From contig JAKAQV010000002.1 in the NCBI GenBank assembly GCA_021819565.1, forward strand, positions 1 to 37,483: a DNA stretch of 37,483 nucleotides, written 5' to 3'. A program made the position numbers and the translations under genes. The stretch comes from a bacterium. Its GTDB lineage: Bacteria; Elusimicrobiota; Elusimicrobia; UBA1565; UBA9628. Of this stretch, positions 1 to 11,138 are shown piece after piece. Under the pieces are notes generated by a model. The model had not been told where the DNA came from. It saw nothing but the letters and a program-made list of their open reading frames with translations, and searched no databases. The first letter of the stretch is position 1, and each line of letters opens with the position of its first letter.

Positions 1-528
1 ATCATAAATAAAGGGTTCTCCTCCCGTGAAATAGAAGCGCCTGACTCCGAGATCGAAAGCTTCGTCAATCGCTTTTAAATAAAAGTCTTTGCTCTCTCCT
101 TTCTCGCCGTGGGGGTCGGAGGAAACCAGGCAATGAGAACAGGACAGATTGCAGGTTTGAAGAAGATGTATCCAAAACTCTTTCAATTTTCCCATCTTTA
201 AATGTCGTGCGCGTCCTTCATAAGGGGGGCGATTGAAGGGCTTTGGGGAAATAATTTCTTTTCTTTCGGCTTCGCGCAAAAAAGAGTGGATGTCCCGCCA
301 GGTTTTTCCATAGTCCAAGCCGGTTTTTTGGGAGTAAAGCCTTAAAATTTCAGAGACTGGATTTTTCCCATCGATAAGATCCAAAATATTTTTCCCTCGC
401 TCATCGGTCGAGACCCAGTTTGGAGAATCAGGGTCAAGGGCGAAATAAAGCCCGTCTTTTTGCCAGCAGTGAAGCTCTGGCTTGTAAAAAATCGTGTCGG
501 CTTTGATTTCAATGAGTTGTGTTTCCAT
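1..528 (-). CDS. Radical SAM protein with N-terminal PqqD-like domain (partial)
   Basis: The first 176 codons of a gene that runs off the left edge. Residues about 10-95 look like a PqqD/RiPP-recognition-type winged-helix region. They are followed by the radical SAM cluster motif CNLSCSHC (Cys126, Cys130, Cys133, the CX3CX2C that binds the 4Fe-4S cluster) and the SAM-binding GGEP at 169-172. The family uses S-adenosylmethionine and a reduced iron-sulfur cluster for radical chemistry; the N-terminal domain suggests peptide modification of the PqqE/SPASM kind, but the C-terminal half is missing. ATG at 528 is supported by AGGAG 8 nt upstream. It lies 19 nt behind the PiT gene on the same strand, so the two are probably co-transcribed. 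The substrate is unknown, and no precursor peptide is visible on this side. Confidence 0.8.
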   Translation of the reverse strand, partial: METQLIEIKADTIFYKPELHCWQKDGLYFALDPDSPNWVSTDERGKNILDLIDGKNPVSEILRLYSQKTGLDYGKTWRDIHSFLREAERKEIISPKPFNRPPYEGRARHLKMGKLKEFWIHLLQTCNLSCSHCLVSSDPHGEKGESKDFYLKAIDEAFDLGVRRFYFTGGEPFIYD

Positions 529-547
529 GTATTTTCTCCTGTATTCC

Positions 548-1534
548 TTATTTTAATTTTTTAAAAGCCCAATAAGCCGCCATGCCCATCATCCCGGAGA
601 CTGGCAATGTAATGACCCATGCCGCTAATATCTCGCCCACCGTTTTCCAATCGATGGTCTTTTCTCCGTTGCGGAGGCCGATTCCCATGATGCCGCCGCT
701 GGCGACATGAGTTGTCGACATAGGCCAACCTGCGATTGCACCTATGATGACCAACATGGATGTCGCGAGATTGGCGGCAAAACCTTCCAGATGGTCCATT
801 TGTGTAATCTTCTCGGCGAGTGTTTTCGTCACCTGTAGACCCATGGCGATTGCTCCCGAGGCCATTGCGGTGGCTAGAATCAGAAAAAACCACTTTGGCG
901 CGATATGAGTTTGAGGGTCGAGGATATAGTAGAAGATAAACCCGAAGGCGGCGATTTTTGGAGTATCGTTGAGCCCACGCGCGAAGCCGCTTGACATCGC
1001 GCTCATCCAATGCGCCCAGTGACAGTTGAGACAATATTTTTTGCGGCAGAGCCAAAACAATCCCTGAAAGATCAAACGGGCCGCGACAAAAGCGGCGATG
1101 GGGGAAACAAGGAGCGGCAGGACCACATTTCGCGTTAGACTTGACCAGAAGACGTTGCGAAAGCCAAAGGCGTAGACGCCAGTCAAAATGACGCTGCCTA
1201 CGATGGCGTGAGTGGTAGAGACTGGAAGTCCGATTTTCGTCGCCATCAGAATCCAGAGAATGGCTCCGGCGAGAACCGCTAAGGCGAAAATTTCGTTGAT
1301 TTTAATATGCGGAGACAGCATTCCTCTGGTGAAAAGGAGAGTCATCTTGACGGCCCAGGCGGAAGCGAGGATCGCTCCCGCGGCAGTACTCAGGGCGACA
1401 AGGATCACGGCCCTCTTGTAACTTGACTCACCGCTTCCGACCAAGGTGGCGATGGACTTTGATATATCGTTGGCGCCGTTGACGAAAGCGAGAGCTGCCG
1501 CGCCAGTTATTCCTAGAAGCGTGGTCAAGTCCAT
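548..1534 (-). CDS. PiT-family inorganic phosphate transporter
   Basis: A 328-residue polytopic membrane protein for low-affinity cation-coupled phosphate uptake. The PiT signature occurs twice, as expected of the family's internal duplication: GANDISKS near residue 20, then GLPVSTTHAIVG in the N-half and GWPMSTTHVASGG in the C-half. PiT proteins carry metal-phosphate complexes, so they can also move divalent metals. I chose ATG at 1534 because the family's N-terminal helix and GAND motif begin just after it; GTG at 1540 is an alternative. No Shine-Dalgarno is seen. The ECF-like promoter at 1546-1574 would start transcription within a few bases of the ATG, so the message may be nearly leaderless. 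The radical SAM gene follows. The divergent neighbour is the ECF sigma gene. Confidence 0.88.
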   Translation of the reverse strand: MDLTTLLGITGAAALAFVNGANDISKSIATLVGSGESSYKRAVILVALSTAAGAILASAWAVKMTLLFTRGMLSPHIKINEIFALAVLAGAILWILMATKIGLPVSTTHAIVGSVILTGVYAFGFRNVFWSSLTRNVVLPLLVSPIAAFVAARLIFQGLFWLCRKKYCLNCHWAHWMSAMSSGFARGLNDTPKIAAFGFIFYYILDPQTHIAPKWFFLILATAMASGAIAMGLQVTKTLAEKITQMDHLEGFAANLATSMLVIIGAIAGWPMSTTHVASGGIMGIGLRNGEKTIDWKTVGEILAAWVITLPVSGMMGMAAYWAFKKLK

Positions 1535-1545
1535 GGTCACACAAG

Positions 1546-1574
1546 TAAGTCGGACAAATTTGTAAAATGTTACA
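1546..1574 (-). promoter_or_regulatory. Candidate ECF-type promoter for the PiT gene
   Basis: Read on the minus strand: TGTAAC at 1574-1569, 17 nt, then GACTTA at 1551-1546; the match to the bufA upstream site extends to TGTAACATTT-N13-GACTTA. GTAAC-type -35 boxes and CGA/GAC-type -10 boxes at 16-17 nt spacing are typical of ECF sigma factors. The site lies beside an ECF sigma gene. That it acts as a promoter is inferred. Confidence 0.6.
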
Positions 1575-1575
1575 A
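1560..1575. repeat. Inverted repeat TTGTAA-N4-TTACAA in the sigma/PiT divergent spacer
   Basis: A perfect 6-bp inverted repeat with a 4-nt centre lies in the 45-nt spacer between the two divergent start codons. It overlaps the candidate -35 box of the PiT promoter. It could be an operator, or the symmetry could be incidental to the -35 box. Confidence 0.45.
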
Positions 1576-1579
1576 CCCT

Positions 1580-2170
1580 ATGCCAACCGATATCTCTAAA
1601 GACGATATCCGGGCTCTCAAGGAGGGCCGGGACGGCGCGATGGCAGAATTGGTCAACTCCCATACTCAGACGCTTTTGGCCGTGAGTTTTGCCATGGGGT
1701 TTTCCCAAGCCGACGCCGAGGAACTCGCACAGGAAACCTTCGCGGCCTTCTTAAGTGCGCTTGATCGCTTTGAAGGGCGATCCCAAATTAAGACCTATCT
1801 TGTCGGAATCCTTTATAATAAGGCCGCGGATTTCCGCCGAAAAAGCTATCGCGAGGAAAGCCTTGACAAAATTCAAGATGACTTTGAAAAGCGTTTTAAC
1901 GAGAGCGGCCTGTGGTCTCGCCCTCCCTTGGGCCCAGAGGAAAGCGTCTTGACCGGAGAGATCAAGGAATTGATCGCGCAATGTGCCGAGGGCTTGACCT
2001 TAAGCCAAAAAACGGCGTTTTTCCTTCGGGAATCGGAGGGAGAGTCCTCCGAGGATATCTGTAACATTTTGGGCGTTTCCTATACCAATTTACGGGTGCT
2101 TCTCTACAGAGCCCGCATCAAGCTGCGGGAGTGCCTGGAAAAGAAATGGGAAAGCGGGAAACATGATTAA
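1580..2170 (+). CDS. ECF-family RNA polymerase sigma factor
   Basis: A 196-residue sigma-70 family protein with only the two ECF domains. Region 2 lies at about 25-95, including the ADAEELAQETFAAFL helix and the SQIKTYLVGILYNKAADFRR segment. Region 4 lies at about 125-190, with a helix-turn-helix around EDICNILGVSYTNLRVLLYRAR. It redirects RNA polymerase to a small stress regulon. It overlaps the zinc-finger anti-sigma gene by 8 nt, the usual pairing. ATG at 1580 gives a normal N-terminus but has no Shine-Dalgarno; the start may be leaderless. The likely targets, from the shared motif, are the PiT and bufA promoters. Caulobacter SigF, another ECF factor, is known to control bufferin genes, which supports this reading. 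Confidence 0.85.
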   Translation: MPTDISKDDIRALKEGRDGAMAELVNSHTQTLLAVSFAMGFSQADAEELAQETFAAFLSALDRFEGRSQIKTYLVGILYNKAADFRRKSYREESLDKIQDDFEKRFNESGLWSRPPLGPEESVLTGEIKELIAQCAEGLTLSQKTAFFLRESEGESSEDICNILGVSYTNLRVLLYRARIKLRECLEKKWESGKHD

Positions 2171-2414
2171 ACGCCTGATGCCGTCTTGTCGGGAGGTGTC
2201 CGAGAAAGTTCTTGTCGGAGAACTTTTCAATGCGCCCTTACTTCAGCGCGGGCTTTTGCGCCTGCATTTGATGTTATGCGAGCATTGCCGGCGCTTTTCG
2301 CGGCAATTAGAGATGATTTCTAAAACGGTAGAAGAAATAGCTCGGCCCCAGCTTGACCCGCGCGTAGTTAAAGCCGCCAAGCGTCGTATTCTGGAACATC
2401 TCAAACCGAAATGA
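2163..2414 (+). CDS. Zinc-finger (zf-HC2 type) anti-sigma factor
   Basis: An 83-residue protein with Cys9 and the ZAS-type signature His35-X3-Cys39-X2-Cys42, which in this family binds zinc and clamps the partner ECF sigma until a thiol-oxidising or metal signal releases it. No transmembrane segment follows the zinc finger, so it looks like a soluble, cytoplasmic, RsrA/ChrR-like form. It overlaps the sigma gene by 8 nt and the redoxin gene by 4 nt (ATGA), so the three are translationally coupled. The adjacent thiol-active redoxin suggests that thiol state or a soft metal is the signal; that is inference. Confidence 0.75.
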   Translation: MIKRLMPSCREVSEKVLVGELFNAPLLQRGLLRLHLMLCEHCRRFSRQLEMISKTVEEIARPQLDPRVVKAAKRRILEHLKPK

Positions 2415-2914
2415 AAAAACTTTTTTGGAAAACTTTTATTCGCGCGAGGTTTTTGTTTCATCCCTATCAAGGCGTCAAACTTGGAGAGGCCATTCCAGAC
2501 TTTACCTTGCGCGACTTAAAAGGGCGGCCTTACACCTTGTCCTCTTATTTTCTTCAGAAATCCGTCGTCTTATGGTTTACCAATCTGTGTTCTACTTGTC
2601 AGGAAAGGATCGGTTTTTTGCAGAATATTTATCAATCGAACCGCGAACATCTCGAGGTGTTGGCGATTTCAACCTTGGGCACGGATCAAAGCGCGCCGGA
2701 GCGGGTTTTGAGGGATCATCGTTTTGATTTTCCTTTGCTCTCAGACCCTGCGGACTGGCTGGGAAAAACCTTGGGCTTGGCTCATCCGGGCGGCGCCTGC
2801 CCCATGTACAACGTGTTGATCTTGGACAAAAAAGGCGGGGCTACCTTCAAACATCACCTTTCCGCCGTCAGCGACGAAAAATTCCTGGAAGCCGTGAAAG
2901 CGTCGGTTGTGTGA
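2411..2914 (+). CDS. AhpC/TSA-TlpA-like redoxin
   Basis: A 167-residue thioredoxin-fold protein. PDFTLRDLKGRPYTLSSY at 29-46 is the typical redoxin opening, followed by the active-site region WFTNLCSTCQE with Cys60 and Cys63 (CXXC). A further Cys lies in GGACPMYN near 128. No convincing signal peptide is visible; the N-terminus is basic and aromatic. The CXXC spacing favours a thiol-disulfide reductase over a one-Cys peroxiredoxin, though a bacterioferritin-comigratory-like peroxidase is possible. It is the third gene of the sigma/anti-sigma operon, starting in an ATGA overlap. It may consume the oxidant or reset the anti-sigma thiols. Confidence 0.7.
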   Translation: MKKLFWKTFIRARFLFHPYQGVKLGEAIPDFTLRDLKGRPYTLSSYFLQKSVVLWFTNLCSTCQERIGFLQNIYQSNREHLEVLAISTLGTDQSAPERVLRDHRFDFPLLSDPADWLGKTLGLAHPGGACPMYNVLILDKKGGATFKHHLSAVSDEKFLEAVKASVV

Positions 2915-3014
2915 ACTACTCATTTCGCGGCAAAATTTTCCGCTTGATCCATCCATAGTTTCTGGCGCCTTGGGGCGGGAAATTGGCGGTGAAGTCCATG
3001 CGCAGGGGTTGAGA

Positions 3015-3848
3015 CTATGGAAAAACTAACCGCTTTAGAACTCCCGAGGAAATCCAATCGCGAATCCAGACTTGGATAGCGCCGGGCTTGACCTGGAACT
3101 TGCGGGAATTCTCGAGGAAATCGCAGAGATTTCCCAAAGAAGCGCCGCCGCGGAGTCTCTTGAGGGCCGTAGATTCCTCAAGCCCAAGAGCCCGAACCTG
3201 GACCCATTGATGATCGCGGACAATCAAAAGAGAACGCTCGCTTTTTTTAATTTTGAGGCTTCTCTTTTTGGCTCTCGCCAGCATTCGTTCATTCCACAGA
3301 CGATCGACGTCCCAATCGAGTTCAATAAATCGTACGCTGGGGTCAAGAATAAATCTCGCCTTCGGCCAGGATTTTTCCGGAATTTGGCGCAGCGACTCTA
3401 GGTTTAAGGGGGAAAGCCTGTCGCGATAAAGGCACGAGAGAACTTCCCATTCCAATCGGGATAAATCGGCGAGGAAGCCAAACTTTCTATTGAGAGGATG
3501 CCGGGATACAAATTTCGGCAAGCGCTCGCCGATAAGGGAAATATTTTTAAAGCGGGAGGGGTGGTCCTTGAGATAATCCGCGATCAGATGGCGAAAATTT
3601 TTATCGCCTAAGAACTCTTTAAGCGTTGGGAAGTCAGAACCCAATGATTCGAGTATGCGCAGGAAATAAGCGTCGCAATAAACGCCGAGGCGTTCCCGCG
3701 CCGAAACCGCGGAGGTTTCAGCGAGAAAATGAGGCAGAAATTGAACCGATGGATTCGACAAAGCGTTGTTGACGCCTCCAGAGTCGGTTAGAATCTTTTG
3801 CAGGCTTTCCTGTAGTTTAGACCAGGGCGGCGCAATCTCGCTTGCCAA
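3015..3848 (-). CDS. bufC: BufC/HvfC-type (DUF2063) partner protein
   Basis: A 277-residue protein with the DUF2063 'putative DNA-binding domain' N-terminus (about 8-95: repeated helices including ERLGVYCDAYFLRILESLGSDFP). The C-terminal part resembles the HvfC/BufC partners of MNIO enzymes. In characterised systems this partner presents the precursor peptide to the DUF692 enzyme and is not a DNA-binding regulator. It starts with TTG at 3848, supported by AGGAGG 7 nt upstream, and overlaps bufB by 32 nt, so the two are translationally coupled. Identification rests on family resemblance plus the precursor-MNIO-partner order. Confidence 0.8.
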   Translation of the reverse strand: MASEIAPPWSKLQESLQKILTDSGGVNNALSNPSVQFLPHFLAETSAVSARERLGVYCDAYFLRILESLGSDFPTLKEFLGDKNFRHLIADYLKDHPSRFKNISLIGERLPKFVSRHPLNRKFGFLADLSRLEWEVLSCLYRDRLSPLNLESLRQIPEKSWPKARFILDPSVRFIELDWDVDRLWNERMLARAKKRSLKIKKSERSLLIVRDHQWVQVRALGLEESTALKRLRGGASLGNLCDFLENSRKFQVKPGAIQVWIRDWISSGVLKRLVFP

Positions 3849-4716
3849 GAATTTTCCTCCTTATTTTTTCGGCGCGCGCGGCCTCTTTTTCAAGGACGCC
3901 AAACGGCGGAATTTTGTCGTCCCACTCAATCAATGTCGGGACATCGCCAAACAGGCGCACGGCCTCGCCGTAGAGTTCCCAGACGGGATCCGACACCGGA
4001 TGATCGTGGGTGTCAATCAAAAGATTGCCGCAATGAGAATAACCAGCCAGATGCATTTGAATGACCCTGTCGGCGGGAATATTTCTCAGGTATTCAACGG
4101 GATCAAAGCCGTGGTTTTTCGCGCTGACATAAACATTGTTAATGTCTAAAAGAATGCCGCAGCCGGCTTGACGAGCGGCCTCGGCTAAAAACTCCCATTC
4201 CGGCATCTGGGAATGGCGAAACGCCAGATAGGTGGACGGGTTTTCCAAGGCGAAGGGCCGTCCCAAAATATCTTGAATCTGGGCGGCGCGAGAAGAAATT
4301 AAATTCAAGCCTTCCGCCGTATACGGCAAGGGCAATAGATCGTGGAGGTTTTGGCCCCTAACTCCGGTCCAACAAAGATGATCGGTGACATGGGGAGAGT
4401 CGATGCGGTCGGCCAGGCGTTTTAAGGCGTTTAAATAATTTTTATCAAGCGGGTCGGCCGAACCGATGTTGAGTGAAACCCCGTGAAGAACGATGGGATA
4501 ATTTCGCCGCGCTTCTTCCAAAATTTCCAGCGGCCTTCCTCCTTGATCGCCCCGCAGTCCCATATAGTTCTCGGAAATCACCTCAAACCAAGGGACGGCG
4601 GGGCGTCGGGACAGGACATGATCGTAATGAACCGAGCGCAGGCCGACTCCGACGCCGCAAACGATTTTTTTATCGCGGAATGCCTGGGCTTTGGTTTTGA
4701 TCCTATCCTGATTCAT
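3817..4716 (-). CDS. bufB: MNIO (DUF692) multinuclear non-heme iron enzyme, BufB-type
   Basis: A 299-residue TIM-barrel enzyme of the DUF692/MNIO family, related to MbnB and TglH. The expected metal-ligand and active-site blocks appear in order: VLHGVSLNIG, HVTDHLCW, ENPSTYLAF, DINNVYVS, MHLAGYS, DTHDHPV and LIEWDD. MNIOs use O2 and a di- or tri-iron centre to oxidise cysteines in a precursor peptide; for bufferins the reported product is thiooxazole, which binds copper. ATG at 4716 lies 5 nt after the bufA stop and has only a weak Shine-Dalgarno, implying translational coupling to bufA. Confidence 0.92.
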   Translation of the reverse strand: MNQDRIKTKAQAFRDKKIVCGVGVGLRSVHYDHVLSRRPAVPWFEVISENYMGLRGDQGGRPLEILEEARRNYPIVLHGVSLNIGSADPLDKNYLNALKRLADRIDSPHVTDHLCWTGVRGQNLHDLLPLPYTAEGLNLISSRAAQIQDILGRPFALENPSTYLAFRHSQMPEWEFLAEAARQAGCGILLDINNVYVSAKNHGFDPVEYLRNIPADRVIQMHLAGYSHCGNLLIDTHDHPVSDPVWELYGEAVRLFGDVPTLIEWDDKIPPFGVLEKEAARAEKIRRKILGKRDCAALV

Positions 4717-4721
4717 TAGGT

Positions 4722-5024
4722 CTATTGTCCGCTCATCTTTTTCATCGGCATGCTCATTTTTTTGACGGGTTTAAGGGAGCCGCCTTCTATGTTCTCGCAG
4801 GATTTCGCGGGCATGGCGAGCCACCCCTGCCCCTTGCAGCTGTTTTTGCCGGCGCACATATGTCCCTTGCCCATGCAGCTTGCGTGCCCCTTGCATTTGT
4901 TGACGCCGTAGCAGTGAACCAGCTTCGGCGCTTTTTTTGCCGCCGCCGGAACCGCCATCAACGCCGCTCCCATCAGCCCCGCGACCGCGGCGCTTAACAA
5001 CGCTTTGTTCTTTTTCTTGTCCAT
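4722..5024 (-). CDS. bufA: BufA2-type periplasmic bufferin metallophore precursor
   Basis: A 100-residue RiPP precursor. Residues 1-29 form a Sec signal (basic KKKNK, hydrophobic AAVAGLMGAALMAV, AAA cleavage region). The mature part carries six cysteines (38, 44, 50, 57, 63, 76) in the bufferin pattern CYGVNKCKGHASC...CAGKNSCKGQGW. Known bufferins are modified on Cys by BufB/BufC, exported, and chelate copper. Unusually the C-terminus is Met- and Lys-rich (Met90, 92, 94, 97), which could add soft-metal ligands. ATG is preceded by AAAGGAGG. It heads the bufABC set and has its own candidate ECF promoter at 5086-5114. Its position downstream of mer genes suggests a soft-metal role beyond copper (inference). 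Confidence 0.88.
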   Translation of the reverse strand: MDKKKNKALLSAAVAGLMGAALMAVPAAAKKAPKLVHCYGVNKCKGHASCMGKGHMCAGKNSCKGQGWLAMPAKSCENIEGGSLKPVKKMSMPMKKMSGQ

Positions 5025-5085
5025 TGATCCTCCTTTATTTTTTATTTTAGGATTTTAAGCTAAGCTCAAGATGTCCAGCTTAAGA

Positions 5086-5114
5086 TAAGTCTGTTCTGAT
5101 CCTCAAATGTTACA
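5086..5114 (-). promoter_or_regulatory. Candidate ECF-type promoter for bufABC
   Basis: On the minus strand TGTAAC (5114-5109), 17 nt, GACTTA (5091-5086), identical in sequence and spacing to the site upstream of the PiT gene, and sharing four further bases after the -35 box. The start of transcription would fall near 5078, leaving a leader of about 55 nt before the bufA ATG. The 150-nt gap between the glutaredoxin-like gene and bufA contains no other gene that I can support. Confidence 0.62.
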
Positions 5115-5174: not shown

Positions 5175-5453
5175 TTAGCAACACTTCCTGCCGATCCCTG
5201 CGGCTTCAAGTTCGTCTGTTTTGACCGCATCTTGGCGGCAGCAGTCAAGCAACTGGCCGTTGACGACGATGGCCGGAAGCCTCGTGATGCCGTATTCTTC
5301 GGCTTTGTTGCGGCATTCATCGGTCTTGCAGCCCTTGTTGAGGTCGTAGACCACGACCTCGCAGTTGGGGCAGGAAGCGGCGTTGACCTTTTTGACCGCG
5401 TCCTCGCAGACAGAACATCCCGCCGTGAATATCTCAACCTTTCTTTTTTCCAT
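5175..5453 (-). CDS. Cys-rich glutaredoxin/thioredoxin-like protein
   Basis: A 92-residue small thioredoxin-fold protein. VEIFTAGCSVCEDA places Cys13 and Cys16 in the active-site CXXC, and RLPAIVVNGQ gives the cis-proline at about 60. It carries eight more cysteines: a second CXXC (28, 31), 42 and 47, vicinal 71-72 and a terminal pair 91-92. The terminal CC echoes the CC near the end of MerA, just upstream. Likely roles are thiol reduction or passing Hg(II) or another soft metal between carriers. It lies 21 nt after merA with a strong Shine-Dalgarno (AGGAGG), so it is the last mer-operon gene before the buf genes. Exact substrate unknown. Confidence 0.72.
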   Translation of the reverse strand: MEKRKVEIFTAGCSVCEDAVKKVNAASCPNCEVVVYDLNKGCKTDECRNKAEEYGITRLPAIVVNGQLLDCCRQDAVKTDELEAAGIGRKCC

Positions 5454-5474
5454 TTTTCCTTCCTCCTTTCGTTT

Positions 5475-6926
5475 TCATTCCGCGCAGCAGGAAAGTTTCG
5501 TCGCGTCTTTAAAGAATCCCTGAGCGCAAATTTTGAGGGCCTCGGATAAAGTCGGATAGACGTGCAGCGTGTCAGTCAAGTCTTTTGCCGTGGCGCCGAA
5601 TTTCAAGGCCATGACCGCCTCATGAATCAAGTCGCCGGCCTGAGCCCCGAGAATATGGACGCCCAAGAGTTTAAGGCTTTTCTCTTCGGCGACGATCTTA
5701 ATGAGTCCGCGTTCGTTGAGCATCACCTCGGCCCGTGGAATCCAGTGAAAATCAAGAACGCTGGTTCGGACCTTGAGGCCGCGCGCCTTGGCCTGTTCTT
5801 CTTTAAGACCCACCGAGGCGAGTTCCGGATCGGTGAAGATCGCGTAGGGAACGACATCGTAATTAATCTTTCGCTCGCAGCAGTCTTCAAGAGCGTTTTG
5901 AGCCGCCACCGCGCCTTGATAGGCGGCGGTATAGACGAATTGATAGGGCCCGACGCAATCGCCGGCGGCAAAGACGCCGTCAACCGATGTTCGCATCAGA
6001 TCATCGGTTTTGATGTATCCTCGCGGGTCCATGGCCACTCCAATGGCCTCAAGACCCATTTCCCGGGTATTGGGCCGCCGTCCAGTCGCTACAATCAGAG
6101 CCTCGGCAGAAAATTCTTTTTTTGCGTCGTTTGGCATTTCCGAGATGATGACGATTTTTTCTCCCTTCTGTTTTGCCGCGACTATCTTGGAACAAGTGCA
6201 AATGCCGATGTCCTCTTCTTTCAAATATTTCTCAAGGGCTTTGGATATTTCCGGCTCTTCCAAGGGAGCCACGCGCCCCATGATTTCATGAATGGAGACG
6301 TTCACTCCAAAGCGCGAAAACATTTGCGCGAGTTCCAGCCCCACCGCGTTGGCGCCCAAGACGATCATGGATTTTGGCAGTTTTTTAAGATTTAACGCCT
6401 CCGTGCTGGTGAGATAGGAGACATTGTTTAAGCCTTCAATGGGCGGAATAAAGGCGGAAGAACCCGTCGCGACGATGATTTTGCGCGCGTGAATTTCGGT
6501 TCCGCTGGCGTCAATTGTGTTGGGCGATTTGAGCTTCGCCCTCCGCGGGATAAAGCTGATGTTTTTATGATGGCGGAGAATATCCCAGTATTTGGCGTTT
6601 CGAGCCCAATCGAGAAGACTGTCTTTCTTTTTAATGAGGCTCGCGAAATCAAGAGAAGAGCGCTTGAGCGAAAACCCGGGAAAGGGGTTTGATTCGGCCA
6701 GATGATAAATCTCGGCCGCTCGTATGAGATGCTTGGAGGGCACGCATCCGCGGTTAAGGCAGGTTCCTCCAATGACGCCTTCCTCAATAATAGCCACCTT
6801 GGCGCCAAGTTCCGAGCCTTTGATGGCTGCGGCAAACGCTCCCGAGCCGCCACCGATGACGGCGAGGTCAAATTCCGTTTTGCCGTCCCAAAATTGACCG
6901 TTTTCGCTTCCGTTATTTTCTTTCAT
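5475..6926 (-). CDS. merA: Mercuric reductase (core form lacking NmerA)
   Basis: A 483-residue FAD-dependent disulfide oxidoreductase that reduces Hg(II) to Hg(0) with NADPH. It shows the FAD Rossmann motif VIGGGSGAFAA (22-32), the redox pair in GGTCLNRGCVPSK (Cys56, Cys61), an NAD(P)-binding segment (MIVLGANAVGLELAQMFSRFG), the second FAD motif (GVFAAGDC) and the dimer-interface domain. The C-terminal LSCCAE (Cys480, Cys481) is the vicinal pair that takes Hg(II) in MerA and is absent from ordinary lipoamide dehydrogenases. The N-terminal heavy-metal domain found in many MerA proteins is missing; here an HMA domain is fused to MerT instead. ATG at 6926 overlaps merTP by 14 nt and has AGGAG upstream. 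Confidence 0.93.
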   Translation of the reverse strand: MKENNGSENGQFWDGKTEFDLAVIGGGSGAFAAAIKGSELGAKVAIIEEGVIGGTCLNRGCVPSKHLIRAAEIYHLAESNPFPGFSLKRSSLDFASLIKKKDSLLDWARNAKYWDILRHHKNISFIPRRAKLKSPNTIDASGTEIHARKIIVATGSSAFIPPIEGLNNVSYLTSTEALNLKKLPKSMIVLGANAVGLELAQMFSRFGVNVSIHEIMGRVAPLEEPEISKALEKYLKEEDIGICTCSKIVAAKQKGEKIVIISEMPNDAKKEFSAEALIVATGRRPNTREMGLEAIGVAMDPRGYIKTDDLMRTSVDGVFAAGDCVGPYQFVYTAAYQGAVAAQNALEDCCERKINYDVVPYAIFTDPELASVGLKEEQAKARGLKVRTSVLDFHWIPRAEVMLNERGLIKIVAEEKSLKLLGVHILGAQAGDLIHEAVMALKFGATAKDLTDTLHVYPTLSEALKICAQGFFKDATKLSCCAE

Positions 6927-7560
6927 TGGATTCTCCTTTTGTAGATAAGTTTGCTGAAAAAATTTCGGCCTTATATCCTGATTTTGCCACGGCTCTGATA
7001 ATGTCTTGAGCGTTCACTTTTCCGTTGGTTTTGACCAGGGCCGTTCCCGCGTCAAAATTGATGTCGGCAAAATAAACCCCGTGGATTTTTTCGATGTTCT
7101 TTTTGATCATTAAGGTGCAGTCCTCGCAGTCCATTCCCGCGATTTTAAGATTGAGGGCTTGGGCGCCGGCGGGGATGGATGCCGCCGCATTCACTTTCCC
7201 CGCAAAGGCGCATTTCTCCAGCAGACAGGTTGACCATTTGGGAAAAGTCGCCAAGGCGAGGGCGAAAACGGCGACGATCCACAGACTCGTCTTCATCGTC
7301 CGGCTTCCGGAACTCATTTTGCAGCTTCCGTCCTCGCACTCAACCGGGCGTTGGCGGTAGGCTCGGTAAAACCCGAAGGCCAAGGCCGTGGCGGTTAGCC
7401 CCAGAAAGTAAGGCCGATAGCGAACCAGTTTGGCCGCAAAGCCAAGGCTGGTGAGTCCCAGGGTGATGGCGATGAGTGGCCCAATGCAGCAGACCGAGGC
7501 CAGGGCCGCCGACAAAAGCGCGGCGGCGCCCGTCCATTTTTCATTGTTTTTGTTTTCCAT
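6913..7560 (-). CDS. merT: Fused mercuric ion transporter MerTP
   Basis: A 215-residue inner-membrane protein: a MerT-like part with three hydrophobic helices (about 12-42, 50-66, 90-106) plus a C-terminal heavy-metal-associated domain (about 135-205) with GMDCEDC (Cys145, Cys148), equivalent to MerP. The first helix has the vicinal Cys24-Cys25 of MerT (ASVCCIGPL). Two more pairs, Cys75/Cys80 and Cys112/Cys117, lie in loops. It imports Hg(II) for reduction by MerA. It overlaps merR by 20 nt and merA by 14 nt, so the operon is tightly coupled. Confidence 0.88.
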   Translation of the reverse strand: MENKNNEKWTGAAALLSAALASVCCIGPLIAITLGLTSLGFAAKLVRYRPYFLGLTATALAFGFYRAYRQRPVECEDGSCKMSSGSRTMKTSLWIVAVFALALATFPKWSTCLLEKCAFAGKVNAAASIPAGAQALNLKIAGMDCEDCTLMIKKNIEKIHGVYFADINFDAGTALVKTNGKVNAQDIIRAVAKSGYKAEIFSANLSTKGESNERK

Positions 7561-7981
7561 GTTTTTCTCCTTTTATTTTTGAGTTGTCGAGGCTTTCTAA
7601 AATTGGGCAATCGGAGCTGATCTTTCTCGTCTTGCAGGCTTGCCTGAGACTTTCCAAGGTTTTCTCAATTGAGCGCAGGCCCAGGATTTTATCTTTGACG
7701 ACTTCTAGGCGGGCTTCGACCTCTTTTCTGACCTTCTCGCACTGATTGGGGCGCTTGACCCGGAGTTTGAGAAGGCGCGCGATTTCAGAGAGGGGAAATC
7801 CCAGCTCTTGGGCGTTTTTGATAAACCGCAGTCTTTGAACCGATTCCTCGCTATAGAGGCGATATCCCGCCTCCGTGCGCGCCTCGGCCGGCAATAGGCC
7901 GCGCCCTTCGTAATAGCGCAGGGTTTGGATATTGACGCCGGCTTTTTTCGCGGCTTGTCCGATGGTCAGGTTTGATTTCAT
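7541..7981 (-). CDS. merR: Mercury-responsive MerR transcriptional regulator
   Basis: A 146-residue MerR-family activator/repressor. The N-terminal winged helix (LTIGQAAKKAGVNIQTLRYYE) is followed by a dimerisation helix and three cysteines at 81, 116 and 125. Their spacing (35 then 9) matches the Hg-binding Cys82/117/126 of Tn501 MerR exactly, which marks it as a mercury sensor. I take ATG at 7981 (AGAGAGGA upstream); the longer reading from TTG at 8029 would start inside the promoter's -35 box. Unlike the divergent Tn501 layout, merR is the first gene of its own operon and so is autoregulated. Confidence 0.93.
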   Translation of the reverse strand: MKSNLTIGQAAKKAGVNIQTLRYYEGRGLLPAEARTEAGYRLYSEESVQRLRFIKNAQELGFPLSEIARLLKLRVKRPNQCEKVRKEVEARLEVVKDKILGLRSIEKTLESLRQACKTRKISSDCPILESLDNSKIKGEKHGKQKQ

Positions 7982-7997
7982 TTTGTCCTCTCTAAGT

Positions 7998-8029
7998 AGT
8001 ATAAACCCTATACCTAGGTATCGAGTCAA
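7998..8029 (-). promoter_or_regulatory. MerR-type promoter/operator of the mer operon
   Basis: On the minus strand: -35 TTGACT (8029-8024), a 20-bp spacer, -10 TATACT (8003-7998). Overlong 19-20 bp spacers are the hallmark of MerR-controlled promoters. The spacer holds a perfect 12-bp palindrome ATACCTAGGTAT (8010-8021), the expected MerR dimer site. The leader to the merR ATG would be only about 10 nt. Confidence 0.85.
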
Positions 8030-8134: not shown

Positions 8135-9742
8135 ATGATTGAGAAAGCTCACATTCTCAAGCGGCGCACCTTGGCCATTATCTCCCATCCCGACGCGGGA
8201 AAAACCACGCTCACGGAAAAACTCTTGCTTTACGGGGGGGCGGTTCAGCTCGCGGGTTCGGTCACGGCGCGCAAAAAAGAGCAAAGCACCGCTTCCGATT
8301 GGATGGAACTGGAAAAAAAACGCGGCATCTCGGTTAATTCGACAGTCCTTCAGTTTGAGTACGGCGGCTTTCATATCAATCTTCTCGACACCCCCGGCCA
8401 TAAAGATTTTTCCGAAGACACCTATCGCGTGTTGACGGCGGTTGACGCGGCCATCATGGTTTTAGACGCCGCCAAGGGTATTGAGAGTCAGACTCTTAAG
8501 CTTTTTGAGATCTGTCGCTTGCGCCAAATTCCTATTTTTACCTTTATCAACAAACTCGATCGCCCGACCATGGAGCCTTTGGCTTTGTTGGATCAGATCG
8601 ATCGCTCGCTTCAGATGCATCCCGTCCCGATGAATTGGCCATTGGGAACGGGCGACCGCTTTCGCGGGGTTTTTGATCGAAGGTCTCAATATATCCACCT
8701 TTTTGAGCGCGTCGCCAGCGGCGCTTTTCGGGCGCCGGTGACCGCGCTTGAGGCCTCCCAATCCGCGTTTGAAAGTTTTCTTGATCCCGAGACCGCGCAT
8801 AAGACCGAAGAAGAGCTGGCTCTGCTTGAAGGAGTGGGGGAAGCTTTTGACCTTTCTTCCGTTAAATCGGGAGATATGACCCCGGTTTTTTTTGGCAGCG
8901 CGATGAATAATTTCGGCATTCAGCTTTTATTGGACGGTTTTCTTGAATTGTCTTTCCCGCCGCGCCCGCAGCCGATTATTTCCGGAGTAGTCGAGCCGGA
9001 AGATCCGCGTTTTTCCGGGTTTGTCTTTAAGATTCAATCGAATATGGACCCTCGCCATCGCGATCAACTGGCTTTCGTTCGCGTTTGTTCCGGACGTTTT
9101 GAACGCAATATGCGCGTCATCCACGCTCAGACCGGGCAAAGCGTTCGCTTGTCCAGTTCTCACAAAGTGCTTGGCCGCGAACGCGAGACCATCGATGAGG
9201 CCTATGCCGGAGACGTGATCGGAATCGTCGGGCATGCCCAGTTTCGCGTGGGGGATACCTTAACCGAAGATGCTCAGATTCAATTTCAGCCCTTGCCGCG
9301 CTTTGCGCCTGAGCATTTCGCTTTTTTGCATGCGGTTAGCTCCGCGGATTTTAAGCGTTTTCGCGCCGGTCTTGAACACTTGCTTCAGGAAGGCGTGGTC
9401 CAATCGTTAGAGCTTTTAAACTCTCCGTCGCGGGTCCCTCTTTTGGGCGCGGTCGGGCCTCTGCAATTTGATGTTTTGCGTTACCGTCTTGAGTCTGAAT
9501 ATGGAGCGGGCTCTCGTCTTGAGCCTGCCCCATGGACGGTTATTCGTTGGATCGATGAGCCCAGCGTCGCCGCCATTAGCGAGGGGGATATTCCCAGCGG
9601 AGCGCGTTTGGCCAAGGATGCCGATGGGCGCATTACCATTCTTTTTCAGCAGGAATGGGACTGCCAATATTTCAGCGATCATCATCCCAAGGTCAAACTC
9701 TCCCGGCAACCGCCCGGAGCTGGCGCGGCCGTGCCTTTATAA
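8135..9742 (+). CDS. prfC: Peptide chain release factor 3 (RF3)
   Basis: A 535-residue translational GTPase that recycles RF1/RF2 from the ribosome after termination. G1 is SHPDAGKTT (17-25), G2 lies in KKRGISVNST, G3 is DTPGHKDF (85-92) and G4 is NKLD (139-142). The DWMELEKKRGISV stretch and the length are characteristic of RF3 rather than EF-G. ATG at 8135 lacks a Shine-Dalgarno but gives the standard family N-terminus. It is monocistronic, between the divergent mer promoter and the ATP synthase operon. A GCCTTTA/TAAAGGC palindrome spans its stop codon but has no good T-tract. Confidence 0.93.
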   Translation: MIEKAHILKRRTLAIISHPDAGKTTLTEKLLLYGGAVQLAGSVTARKKEQSTASDWMELEKKRGISVNSTVLQFEYGGFHINLLDTPGHKDFSEDTYRVLTAVDAAIMVLDAAKGIESQTLKLFEICRLRQIPIFTFINKLDRPTMEPLALLDQIDRSLQMHPVPMNWPLGTGDRFRGVFDRRSQYIHLFERVASGAFRAPVTALEASQSAFESFLDPETAHKTEEELALLEGVGEAFDLSSVKSGDMTPVFFGSAMNNFGIQLLLDGFLELSFPPRPQPIISGVVEPEDPRFSGFVFKIQSNMDPRHRDQLAFVRVCSGRFERNMRVIHAQTGQSVRLSSSHKVLGRERETIDEAYAGDVIGIVGHAQFRVGDTLTEDAQIQFQPLPRFAPEHFAFLHAVSSADFKRFRAGLEHLLQEGVVQSLELLNSPSRVPLLGAVGPLQFDVLRYRLESEYGAGSRLEPAPWTVIRWIDEPSVAAISEGDIPSGARLAKDADGRITILFQQEWDCQYFSDHHPKVKLSRQPPGAGAAVPL

Positions 9743-9775
9743 AGGCTTCCCTTTATTTGCGTTTCGAGGGAGCAT

Positions 9776-9805
9776 TTGATAAAATAGCTCACAGAGTGAT
9801 AAAAT
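9776..9805 (+). promoter_or_regulatory. Candidate promoter of the ATP synthase operon
   Basis: -35 TTGATA (9776-9781), 18-nt spacer, -10 TAAAAT (9800-9805), each 5/6 to consensus. Transcription would begin near 9812, at the 5' foot of the hairpin that displays the atpZ start codon, giving a leader of about 10 nt. The gap 9743-9821 holds nothing else apparent. Confidence 0.5.
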
Positions 9806-9810
9806 TTCCC

Positions 9811-9843
9811 CGCCGCTTTTTATGACAGAAGAAAAAAGCGGCG
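9811..9843 (+). promoter_or_regulatory. Hairpin with the atpZ start codon in its loop
   Basis: CGCCGCTTTTT (9811-9821) is perfectly complementary to AAAAAGCGGCG (9833-9843): an 11-bp stem with an 11-nt loop (9822-9832) that begins with the atpZ ATG. There is no Shine-Dalgarno upstream. The RNA fold is directly implied by the sequence; a role in initiation is inferred. Confidence 0.6.
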
Positions 9844-10031
9844 CTTGGTTTTTGGCTTTAAGCGGCGGGGTGGAGTTGGTCGTTTCGGTTTTAGGTTTAT
9901 CTTGGCTGGGTTGGTGGGCGGATAGGAAATTTAACTCTTATCCGTGGTTCTTAGTGTGTGGGACTTTTTTGGGAATGGCGGTCGGTATTTATGGAATTAT
10001 TCGGTCTTCAAGTAAAAAAAATGTTCCTTAA
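9822..10031 (+). CDS. atpZ: AtpZ-like small membrane protein of ATP synthase operon
   Basis: A 69-residue protein with two hydrophobic helices (about 8-30 and 40-60) around WWADRKFNSYPWFLVCGTFLGMAVGIYG, typical of the AtpZ family encoded at the head of atp operons. AtpZ proteins are linked to assembly of the c-ring and to Mg/Ca transport with AtpI. The start codon sits in a hairpin loop. It overlaps the next gene by 11 nt. Confidence 0.75.
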   Translation: MTEEKSGAWFLALSGGVELVVSVLGLSWLGWWADRKFNSYPWFLVCGTFLGMAVGIYGIIRSSSKKNVP

Positions 10032-10380
10032 AAACTCTTTGACGTCTTTGTCTGCGGGGATATTTGCCGTTTTTGTCATTTTTTGTATTTGGGGAAAAAA
10101 AGATATTCGCCTGTCTGCGGCGTTGGGGCTTTTTTGCGCGTGGGCCTTATCGAGCGTGAGTTTGTTTTTCTTGGAGAGAGTTTCTTCTTCGATGAAAAAG
10201 TTTTTTAAAGCGTGGCTTGGCGGCATTGTCGCCAGAGTGATTGTTTTGGCGTGCTTGATGGTCCTTTCTTGGCGCTGGGATATTTCTTCCCAAGCGGCTC
10301 TTCTTTTATCTTATTGCTTTGGCGTTCTTGCTTTCATCGCCATTGAATCTCGCTCTCTTTCCATCAAGGCGGCGCGATGA
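10021..10380 (+). CDS. atpI: AtpI-like ATP synthase assembly membrane protein
   Basis: A 119-residue, four-helix hydrophobic protein in the usual atpI position, between atpZ and atpB. No strong motif is visible; the assignment rests on size, topology and place. AtpI helps c-ring assembly. I choose ATG at 10021 over an upstream in-frame ATG at 9958, which would overlap most of atpZ. It ends in an ATGA overlap with atpB. Confidence 0.6.
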   Translation: MFLKNSLTSLSAGIFAVFVIFCIWGKKDIRLSAALGLFCAWALSSVSLFFLERVSSSMKKFFKAWLGGIVARVIVLACLMVLSWRWDISSQAALLLSYCFGVLAFIAIESRSLSIKAAR

Positions 10381-11138
10381 ATTTTGAGCCGATTCTCAAA
10401 CATCACCTGTTAGATCACACCTTGGTCCCCTTTTATGCGGGAGGAATTAATTTAGGGCTGACGCAACACCTCTTGATGATGTGGATTGTGTCAGCGATTT
10501 TAGTCTTTGCCGCGACGATGTCCGTTCGGGCCGAAGGCCGTTCCGGAATTTTTTTGCGTTCTGGAATTGAGTCTATCGTCCTTTATATTCGAGATGAAAT
10601 GATGCGCCCTATTTTTCATGAGGAGACTGATTATTATCTTCCTTATTTTCTAACCTTGTTTTTCTTTATCCTGGTCGCTAATTTTGCCGGCATGGTTCCC
10701 TATGCTTCCTCAATCATGGGAGATATTTCGGTGACGCTGGCTTTGTCGCTATGCACATTTATCTTGATTCAGTTCGCCGGCATTAAAGCTCAAGGTCTTA
10801 TTTCTTATTTAAAACATATCGTTCCCGGCGGCACTCCCTGGTGGCTGGTTCCGCTTCTTTTTGTCATCGAAATCTTTGGGCTCTGCGCGAAATGCGTCGC
10901 TCTCTGTATTCGTCTTTTCGCCAATATCGTCGCTGGCCATATGGTGGCTTTGGCTTGTTTGTCCCTGATTTTCATTTTTGCCCAGATGAATCATTATATA
11001 GGAATTGTCTCCGCTCCCTTTGCGGTGGGGTTGACCTTGTTTTCAAGTTTGTTAGACGTTCTTGTCGCGTTGCTCCAGGCGTATATTTTTACGATTTTGA
11101 CCGCTCTCTTTGTGGGCTTTGCCGTTCATCCCCATTAA
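10377..11138 (+). CDS. atpB: ATP synthase Fo subunit a
   Basis: A 253-residue membrane subunit forming the ion half-channels next to the c-ring. The essential arginine lies in the penultimate helix block ALCIRLFANIVAGHMV, and the GLTLFSSLLDVLVALLQAYIFTILTALF end is typical of subunit a. The start overlaps atpI by 4 nt. Length is normal. Confidence 0.93.
   Translation: MNFEPILKHHLLDHTLVPFYAGGINLGLTQHLLMMWIVSAILVFAATMSVRAEGRSGIFLRSGIESIVLYIRDEMMRPIFHEETDYYLPYFLTLFFFILVANFAGMVPYASSIMGDISVTLALSLCTFILIQFAGIKAQGLISYLKHIVPGGTPWWLVPLLFVIEIFGLCAKCVALCIRLFANIVAGHMVALACLSLIFIFAQMNHYIGIVSAPFAVGLTLFSSLLDVLVALLQAYIFTILTALFVGFAVHPH

Follow-up and report, generated by a model that had tools for sequence, protein, structure and literature searches.

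The window analysed here is a stretch of 37,483 nucleotides (nt) on contig JAKAQV010000002.1 (assembly GCA_021819565.1), which belongs to a metagenome-assembled genome (MAG) of the phylum Elusimicrobiota comprising 1,798,518 bases in 195 contigs and estimated to be 81% complete. Near its left end lies a gene encoding an extracytoplasmic function (ECF) sigma factor, set among genes for a predicted anti-sigma factor, a phosphate transporter and a bufferin operon. The promoters that this sigma factor very probably reads, including one that appears to be embedded in the sigma gene itself, are the subject of this analysis. The genes concerned are the following.

1580-2170, plus strand: ECF sigma factor gene, 196 amino acids, with region 2 and region 4 (PF04542 and PF08281, above cutoffs) and the recognition helix TNLRVLLYRAR, which contains Arg172
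2163-2414, plus strand: predicted soluble zinc-binding-type (ZAS) anti-sigma factor, 83 amino acids, C9-X25-H35-X3-C39-X2-C42
2411-2914, plus strand: redoxin/AhpC-TSA family gene (PF00578), whose start overlaps the end of the anti-sigma gene
548-1534, minus strand: PiT-type (PHO4) inorganic phosphate transporter (PF01384, 1.7e-61)
1-528, minus strand: radical SAM gene with an N-terminal PqqD-like domain, truncated at the window edge
4722-5024, minus strand: bufA, BufA2-family bufferin precursor (NF050166, 74.2 bits, cutoff 60)
3817-4716, minus strand: bufB, MNIO bufferin maturase (NF050167, 360.6 bits, cutoff 310)
3015-3848, minus strand: bufC, DUF2063/HvfC-like partner protein (profile matches)

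The sigma factor aligns to Escherichia coli sigma-E across nearly its full length and has the build of a group IV factor, with region 2 and region 4 only in about 200 amino acids; TIGR02943 is its top NCBIfam match, yet below the cutoff. The anti-sigma protein scores 42.8 bits against the NCBIfam anti-sigma family NF052368, under the cutoff of 50, and fits the MseR-like pattern C/H-X23-26-H-X3-C-X2-C. The genes bufA-bufB-bufC (5024-3015, minus strand) constitute a bufferin-2 operon, in which BufA2 and BufB score above curated cutoffs. The PiT and radical SAM genes are divergent from the sigma, anti-sigma and redoxin genes. The radical SAM gene lies 20 nt downstream of PiT, and the two form an apparent operon. 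The promoter-like elements associated with these genes are listed below.

1546-1574, minus strand: predicted ECF-dependent promoter of the PiT (and radical SAM) operon, with -35 TGTAAC at 1574-1569, a spacer of N18 and -10 ACTTA at 1550-1546
5086-5114, minus strand: predicted ECF-dependent promoter of bufA-bufB-bufC, with -35 TGTAAC at 5114-5109 and -10 ACTTA at 5090-5086
2060-2088, plus strand: intragenic promoter-like element in the ECF gene, with -35 TGTAAC at 2060-2065 (codons C161-N162) and ACCAA in the -10 position at 2084-2088 (codons T169-N170)

An earlier note on this DNA had reported that TGTAACATTT-N13-GACTTA occurs on the minus strand at both 1574-1546 and 5114-5086, on either side of an ECF gene, and had interpreted it as a promoter motif of that ECF factor. 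Both occurrences are exact, and the sigma gene (1580-2170) does lie between them. A scan of the whole assembly with TGTAAC-N17-GACTTA, which the note had proposed, returned exactly two exact matches, both inside the window, one ahead of PiT and one ahead of bufA; about 0.2 chance matches are expected for this 12-base pattern on both strands. When one or two mismatches were allowed, the extra matches in the genome resembled background and were fewer than those of the reversed control pattern. The bufA site is located 61 nt from the bufA ATG (5024), which is accompanied by an AGGAGG-type Shine-Dalgarno sequence. The ATTT that follows TGTAAC at both window sites is only partly kept elsewhere. In addition, an inverted repeat, TTGTAA-N4-TTACAA, at 1561-1576 overlaps the -35 element of the PiT site just upstream of the sigma ATG and might couple the two divergent promoters; it was not conserved in the relatives inspected.

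In a set of 57 related genomes, an ortholog-level ECF gene (E < 1e-40) was found in 26. Scanning all 57 with TGTAAC-N17-SACTYA yielded 49 matches, compared with 14 for the reversed pattern used as control, and 46 of the 49 fell in the 26 ECF-carrying genomes. The motif was present in 19 of these 26 genomes and in 3 of the 31 without the ECF gene (Fisher p about 1e-6), and altering its sixth base to G (TGTAAG) in the same scan gave 2 matches. The ECF genes were divided into class R, with Arg at residue 172 (helix TNLRV), and class G, with Gly at this residue. At class R loci, with the intragenic site excluded, TGTAAC and ACTYA were paired 20 times at a spacing of 18 and 0-1 times at each of the remaining spacings between 12 and 24. 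In place of the GAC-type -10 of the earlier note, the conserved core is thus ACTYA, placed 18 nt after TGTAAC (consensus TGTAAC-N18-ACTYA). A phylum-scale hold-out provided three further ECF genes, two pairing TGTAAC with LRV and one pairing TGTAAG with FGV, although two of them appear to be almost the same as loci already in the set.

The motif is found ahead of PiT in other Elusimicrobiota (L081, L085, L106, L139, L150 and L158) and ahead of bufA in G004, G016 and G030, which are the other class R genomes with a recognised BufA2-type gene upstream of bufB. One of the PiT loci (L106:354-453, in genome G009) has two tandem TGTAAC-N18 sites, ending in ACCAA and ACTTA, about 100 nt apart. In a Bacteriovoracaceae MAG (L196:9559-9910), TGTAAG-N18-ACTTA stands ahead of a BufA2 gene (score above cutoff) that is divergent from a class G ECF gene, and this site carries the link between the sigma factor and bufferins to Bdellovibrionota. 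Similarly, the motif precedes PMSR/SelR genes (MsrA or MsrAB fusion) at L098, L101, L123, L133 and L137; no msrA/msrB site was found in the genome of the window, where the exact sites are the two described above. A redoxin-DUF547 gene in one relative (L161) has its own TGTAAC-N18-ACTCA site, and further genes preceded by sites encode DoxX, DUF547, DUF3179, YceI, AhpD-like, MerR, thioredoxin and ArsM-like proteins. The conservation in relatives that had been suggested as a check is therefore seen upstream of orthologous genes and at one spacing only, and the two-part build with AA in the -35, the association with ECF-carrying genomes, the fixed spacing and the sixth-base specificity support the earlier assignment of an ECF-type promoter to the adjacent sigma factor. 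Taken together, the comparisons demonstrate the motif, its spacing, its specificity and its predicted target genes.

The proposal of a single regulon comprising PiT/radical SAM, bufABC and the sigma/anti-sigma/redoxin locus holds in part. PiT and buf share the motif across relatives, but the sigma gene itself has no upstream motif; among 60 related ECF genes, the motif points at the sigma gene in 3 and the opposite way in 19. A sigma-70 scan for the window sigma gene's own promoter gave nothing convincing, and -10-like TAGAAT/TATAAT boxes upstream of the relatives' ECF genes were noted by eye only. The anti-sigma and redoxin genes would enter the regulon by another route, via a promoter inside the sigma coding sequence that the earlier note had missed. 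Codons 161-170 of the sigma gene (region 4.2) spell the motif, and the -10 position is 74 nt from the anti-sigma ATG in the window. We infer that this element is a sigma-driven promoter of the anti-sigma gene, which would provide negative feedback.

Synonymous constraint is evident at the intragenic site when 62 homologs are compared. The sequence [TCG]GTAAC is present in 30 of 31 class R genes. TGT encodes Cys161 in 26 of 27 genes, against 7.5 predicted from local codon usage, and the control cysteines use TGT in 4 of 30 (Cys135) and 4 of 31 (Cys185) genes. Genes with Arg or Gly in place of Cys161 use CGT or GGT there, so that GTAAC is preserved. Asn162 is AAC in 30/30 class R genes and AAT in 7/7 class G genes, a purely synonymous difference. 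Further, ACT encodes Thr169 in 17 class R genes (3.7 expected) and 16 class G genes (4.5 expected). In an unbiased scan of all sufficiently conserved codons, C161-TGT was the strongest outlier in class R (nominal p 4e-15), T169-ACT and N162-AAC ranked within the top six, and the top two outliers in class G were T169-ACT and C161-TGT. It is these codons that spell the -35 and -10 elements of the motif. Codon bias in class R also extends to L164 (TTG), L171 (TTA), R172 (CGG) and V173 (GTG), which lie near the spacer and the point where the embedded transcript would be expected to begin.

Of 60 related ECF genes that were scored, 55 have a ZAS-motif open reading frame downstream. Among class R and class G genes with readable downstream regions, 51 of the 55 that precede a ZAS gene contain the intragenic site, compared with 0 of the 5 that do not (Fisher p 2e-5), which suggests that the element is kept only where an anti-sigma gene exists to be transcribed. 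One of the five is a class R paralog in G030, a genome that also has an intact copy. This paralog (L084:853-1413) runs into a repeat-containing open frame, and its internal promoter has been lost (TGCGGC).

The sixth base of the intragenic -35 element varies with the recognition helix, being C in 30 of 31 Arg172 genes and G, T or A in all 23 Gly172 genes. The intergenic promoters at class G loci agree, with 8 occurrences of TGTAAG-N18-ACTYA and 0 of TGTAAC-N18-ACTYA. On a maximum-likelihood tree built with the columns of residue 172 and the site dropped, residue 172 changed at least 8 times; across five well-supported independent contrasts, the base shifted in the expected way in 4.8 on average, and never in the opposite way. 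Residue 172 of the window protein aligns with an Arg of E. coli sigma-E, which we take to be Arg171, and matches Arg170 of Corynebacterium glutamicum sigma-D by its Arg-Val pattern. Modelling and mutagenesis of sigma-D located this Arg at the G that pairs with the C of GTAAC (PMC11588781), a contact that offers a physical reason for the pairing of Arg with C. It is likely that an ECF family spread across several phyla carries, inside the codons for -35 recognition, a promoter read by that same region, with helix and base locked together; concerted switches of specificity (TGTAAC to TGTAAG/T/A) would have taken place on several occasions, each of them linked to a downstream anti-sigma gene.

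For the window, the sequence evidence makes it highly probable that the ECF factor encoded at 1580-2170 reads TGTAAC-N18-AC(T/C)(C/T/A)A and controls a small regulon for redox and metal damage that takes in PiT with the radical SAM gene, bufABC, and the anti-sigma and redoxin genes downstream of its own, with the embedded promoter limiting the response. Another promoter would supply basal amounts of the sigma factor, which the ZAS protein would retain. By analogy with MseR, HrsE and RsrA, thiol oxidation or zinc displacement/metal stress may cause the anti-sigma factor to release it. The freed sigma factor would then fire the PiT/radical SAM and buf promoters (repair or redox genes in other members of the family) and also the promoter inside the region 4.2 codons of its own gene; this embedded promoter would yield anti-sigma factor and redoxin with no extra sigma factor. 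Since anti-sigma factor would be made without more sigma factor, the response would be self-limiting and self-terminating; it is expected to be fast, capped in height and soon over.

Several observations weigh against this interpretation. The -10 element of the PiT site ends only 11 nt from the ATG (1534), so that the PiT transcript would have little or no leader, unless the start differs. The intragenic -10 in the window is ACCAA and not ACTYA, and its strength is uncertain; the intergenic TGTAAC-N18-ACCAA site in L106 indicates that such a sequence may work but could be weak. ACT is absent from the intragenic -10 in 14 of 31 class R genes, and four ZAS-linked genes lack the internal site. 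The codon p-values are nominal, the genes being related, though the control codons lack matching conservation. The phylogeny-aware test comprises 5 pairs only and gives a sign test p of 0.06, the lowest possible with five. Finally, the genome is a MAG that is only 81% complete.

Some of these points would also fit a different division of roles, in which only the intergenic motif works as an ECF promoter and the intragenic TGTAAC is a non-productive binding site that acts as a sigma sink, a pausing site or a roadblock. Within the gene, conservation of the -10 falls short of that of the -35, with ACT found in 17 of 31 class R genes, and silent intragenic sigma sites that still bind RNA polymerase or cause pausing have been discussed (PMC10771440). 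We consider this unlikely, given that ACT at Thr169 is strongly enriched in both classes, that the site tracks the downstream anti-sigma gene (51/55 versus 0/5) and that the proven equivalent, PrshA within sigH, is productive (PMC3489674). Much the same codons could instead be conserved on account of the protein or its translation (rare codons, or the motif CN-LGV-TN-RV), with the likeness to a promoter being coincidental. The peptide C-[NK]-x-L-x-[VI] is indeed conserved, and the class R bias extends to L164, L171 and V173. Amino-acid conservation, however, fails to explain the choice of TGT over TGC, the AAC/AAT split between the classes or the occurrence of CGT AAC and GGT AAC after loss of the Cys, and the codon choice shows the same base change as the intergenic promoters; such a constraint is accordingly a very improbable explanation.

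The two intergenic sites might also be operators of a repressor or activator and not sigma promoters, as the palindrome overlapping the left one (1561-1576) could indicate. The palindrome is missing at the bufA site and in relatives, however, and the motif is asymmetric and two-part, with fixed spacing and orientation to the genes, its presence and sixth base tracking the ECF gene, which leaves operators with hardly any likelihood. That the sites are a chance resemblance or functionless paralogous remnants might be argued from there being just two exact sites in the genome; their conservation across genera and phyla at a single spacing refutes this, and its probability is negligible. Recognition of all three elements by the ECF factor thus remains the reading that we favour, and it can be compared with systems described previously.

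The window sigma factor is part of a ZAS-type system like sigma-E (RpoE)/MseR of Neisseria meningitidis, in which a small soluble ZAS anti-sigma factor is likewise encoded directly downstream of the ECF gene (PMC2893595, PMC3240639). The Neisseria regulon includes MsrA/MsrB and an operon that has DoxX and DUF2063-type genes. The Neisseria promoter, with -35 GTMAGBWTT and -10 CGTCTAAH, can be overlaid on TGTAA-N18/19-CTAA. The systems differ in that the Neisseria rpoE operon has upstream positive autoregulation, whereas here the sigma gene mostly lacks a motif of its own and a predicted embedded promoter precedes the anti-sigma gene; further, PiT is one of the main targets here, the sixth -35 base is C and the -10 is ACTYA. 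RpoE2/HrsE of Haemophilus influenzae is similar in its ZAS-type anti-sigma factor of 67 amino acids, its msrAB target and a sigma gene that is hardly autoregulated, and the parts of that report consulted mention neither a bufferin or PiT link nor an internal promoter (PMC7907618).

A parallel to the embedded promoter is sigH-rshA of C. glutamicum, where the sigma gene is read from other promoters and a cognate promoter lies inside the sigma reading frame upstream of the anti-sigma gene (PMC3489674). PrshA is sigma-dependent, transcribes the anti-sigma gene only and starts 62-66 nt before it, and fast shutdown was proposed (PMC3489674). That system belongs to another ECF family with GGAAT/GTT promoters. 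The Elusimicrobiota-Acidobacteriota-Bdellovibrionota family differs in the deep conservation of the element, its location in region 4.2 and its covariation with the helix; in the window, the -10 of the element deviates (ACCAA). As the same logic has been proven for sigH-rshA in a different ECF family, the architecture is known; the family, the depth of conservation and the overlap of helix and promoter are new as far as found. A search of the open-access literature found no earlier report of an embedded promoter for this ECF family, though prior reports may exist.

Kinship to SigF of Caulobacter, with which the earlier note had compared the motif, was not borne out. SigF also controls DUF2282-DUF692-DUF2063 (bufferin) operons and has a GTAACC -35, but its promoter is GTAACC-N16-CGAA and its anti-sigma factor is NrsF (PMC3511200), a DUF1109 protein with six transmembrane helices. 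Membership of that group is ruled out by the soluble 83-amino-acid ZAS protein and by the TGTAAC-N18-ACTYA promoter. Sigma-D of C. glutamicum reads a GTAAC -35 through an Arg-Val helix whose Arg touches the G paired with the fifth base, C, but it has a GAT -10 and belongs to another family (PMC11588781). The buf genes correspond to described bufferin-2 clusters, which comprise a BufA2 precursor, an MNIO maturase and a partner protein (PMC12452194). In that survey, sigma-factor genes occurred in Buf1 and not in Buf2 clusters, whereas here a BufA2 cluster adjoins, and apparently is driven by, an ECF sigma factor.

With these predictions, Elusimicrobiota, represented here by metagenome assemblies throughout, would gain a defined ECF regulon, and BufA2 bufferins would be tied to a redox-type ECF/ZAS system. 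The sigma gene would be a natural example of dual coding, as one stretch of it would both encode a DNA-binding helix and contain the promoter read by that helix, the two varying together. The pairing of one residue with one base (Arg with C, Gly with G/T/A) may help to predict the promoter specificity of ECF factors and to design orthogonal switches based on them.

Some further observations concern the surroundings of these genes. A distinct ECF subfamily, with the helix GHLAVLL and its own ZAS gene, is found about 0.9 kb from bufB in another relative (L108, G021:C58, about 8570-10700), and this ECF gene has no internal TGTAA site. Directly upstream of bufA in the window is a mercury-type cluster (5175-8029, minus strand) encoding a thioredoxin-like protein, a MerA-like reductase, a MerT/HMA-like fusion and MerR. 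A TGTAAC-N18-ACTTA site is also found at a MerR gene in the relative L088.

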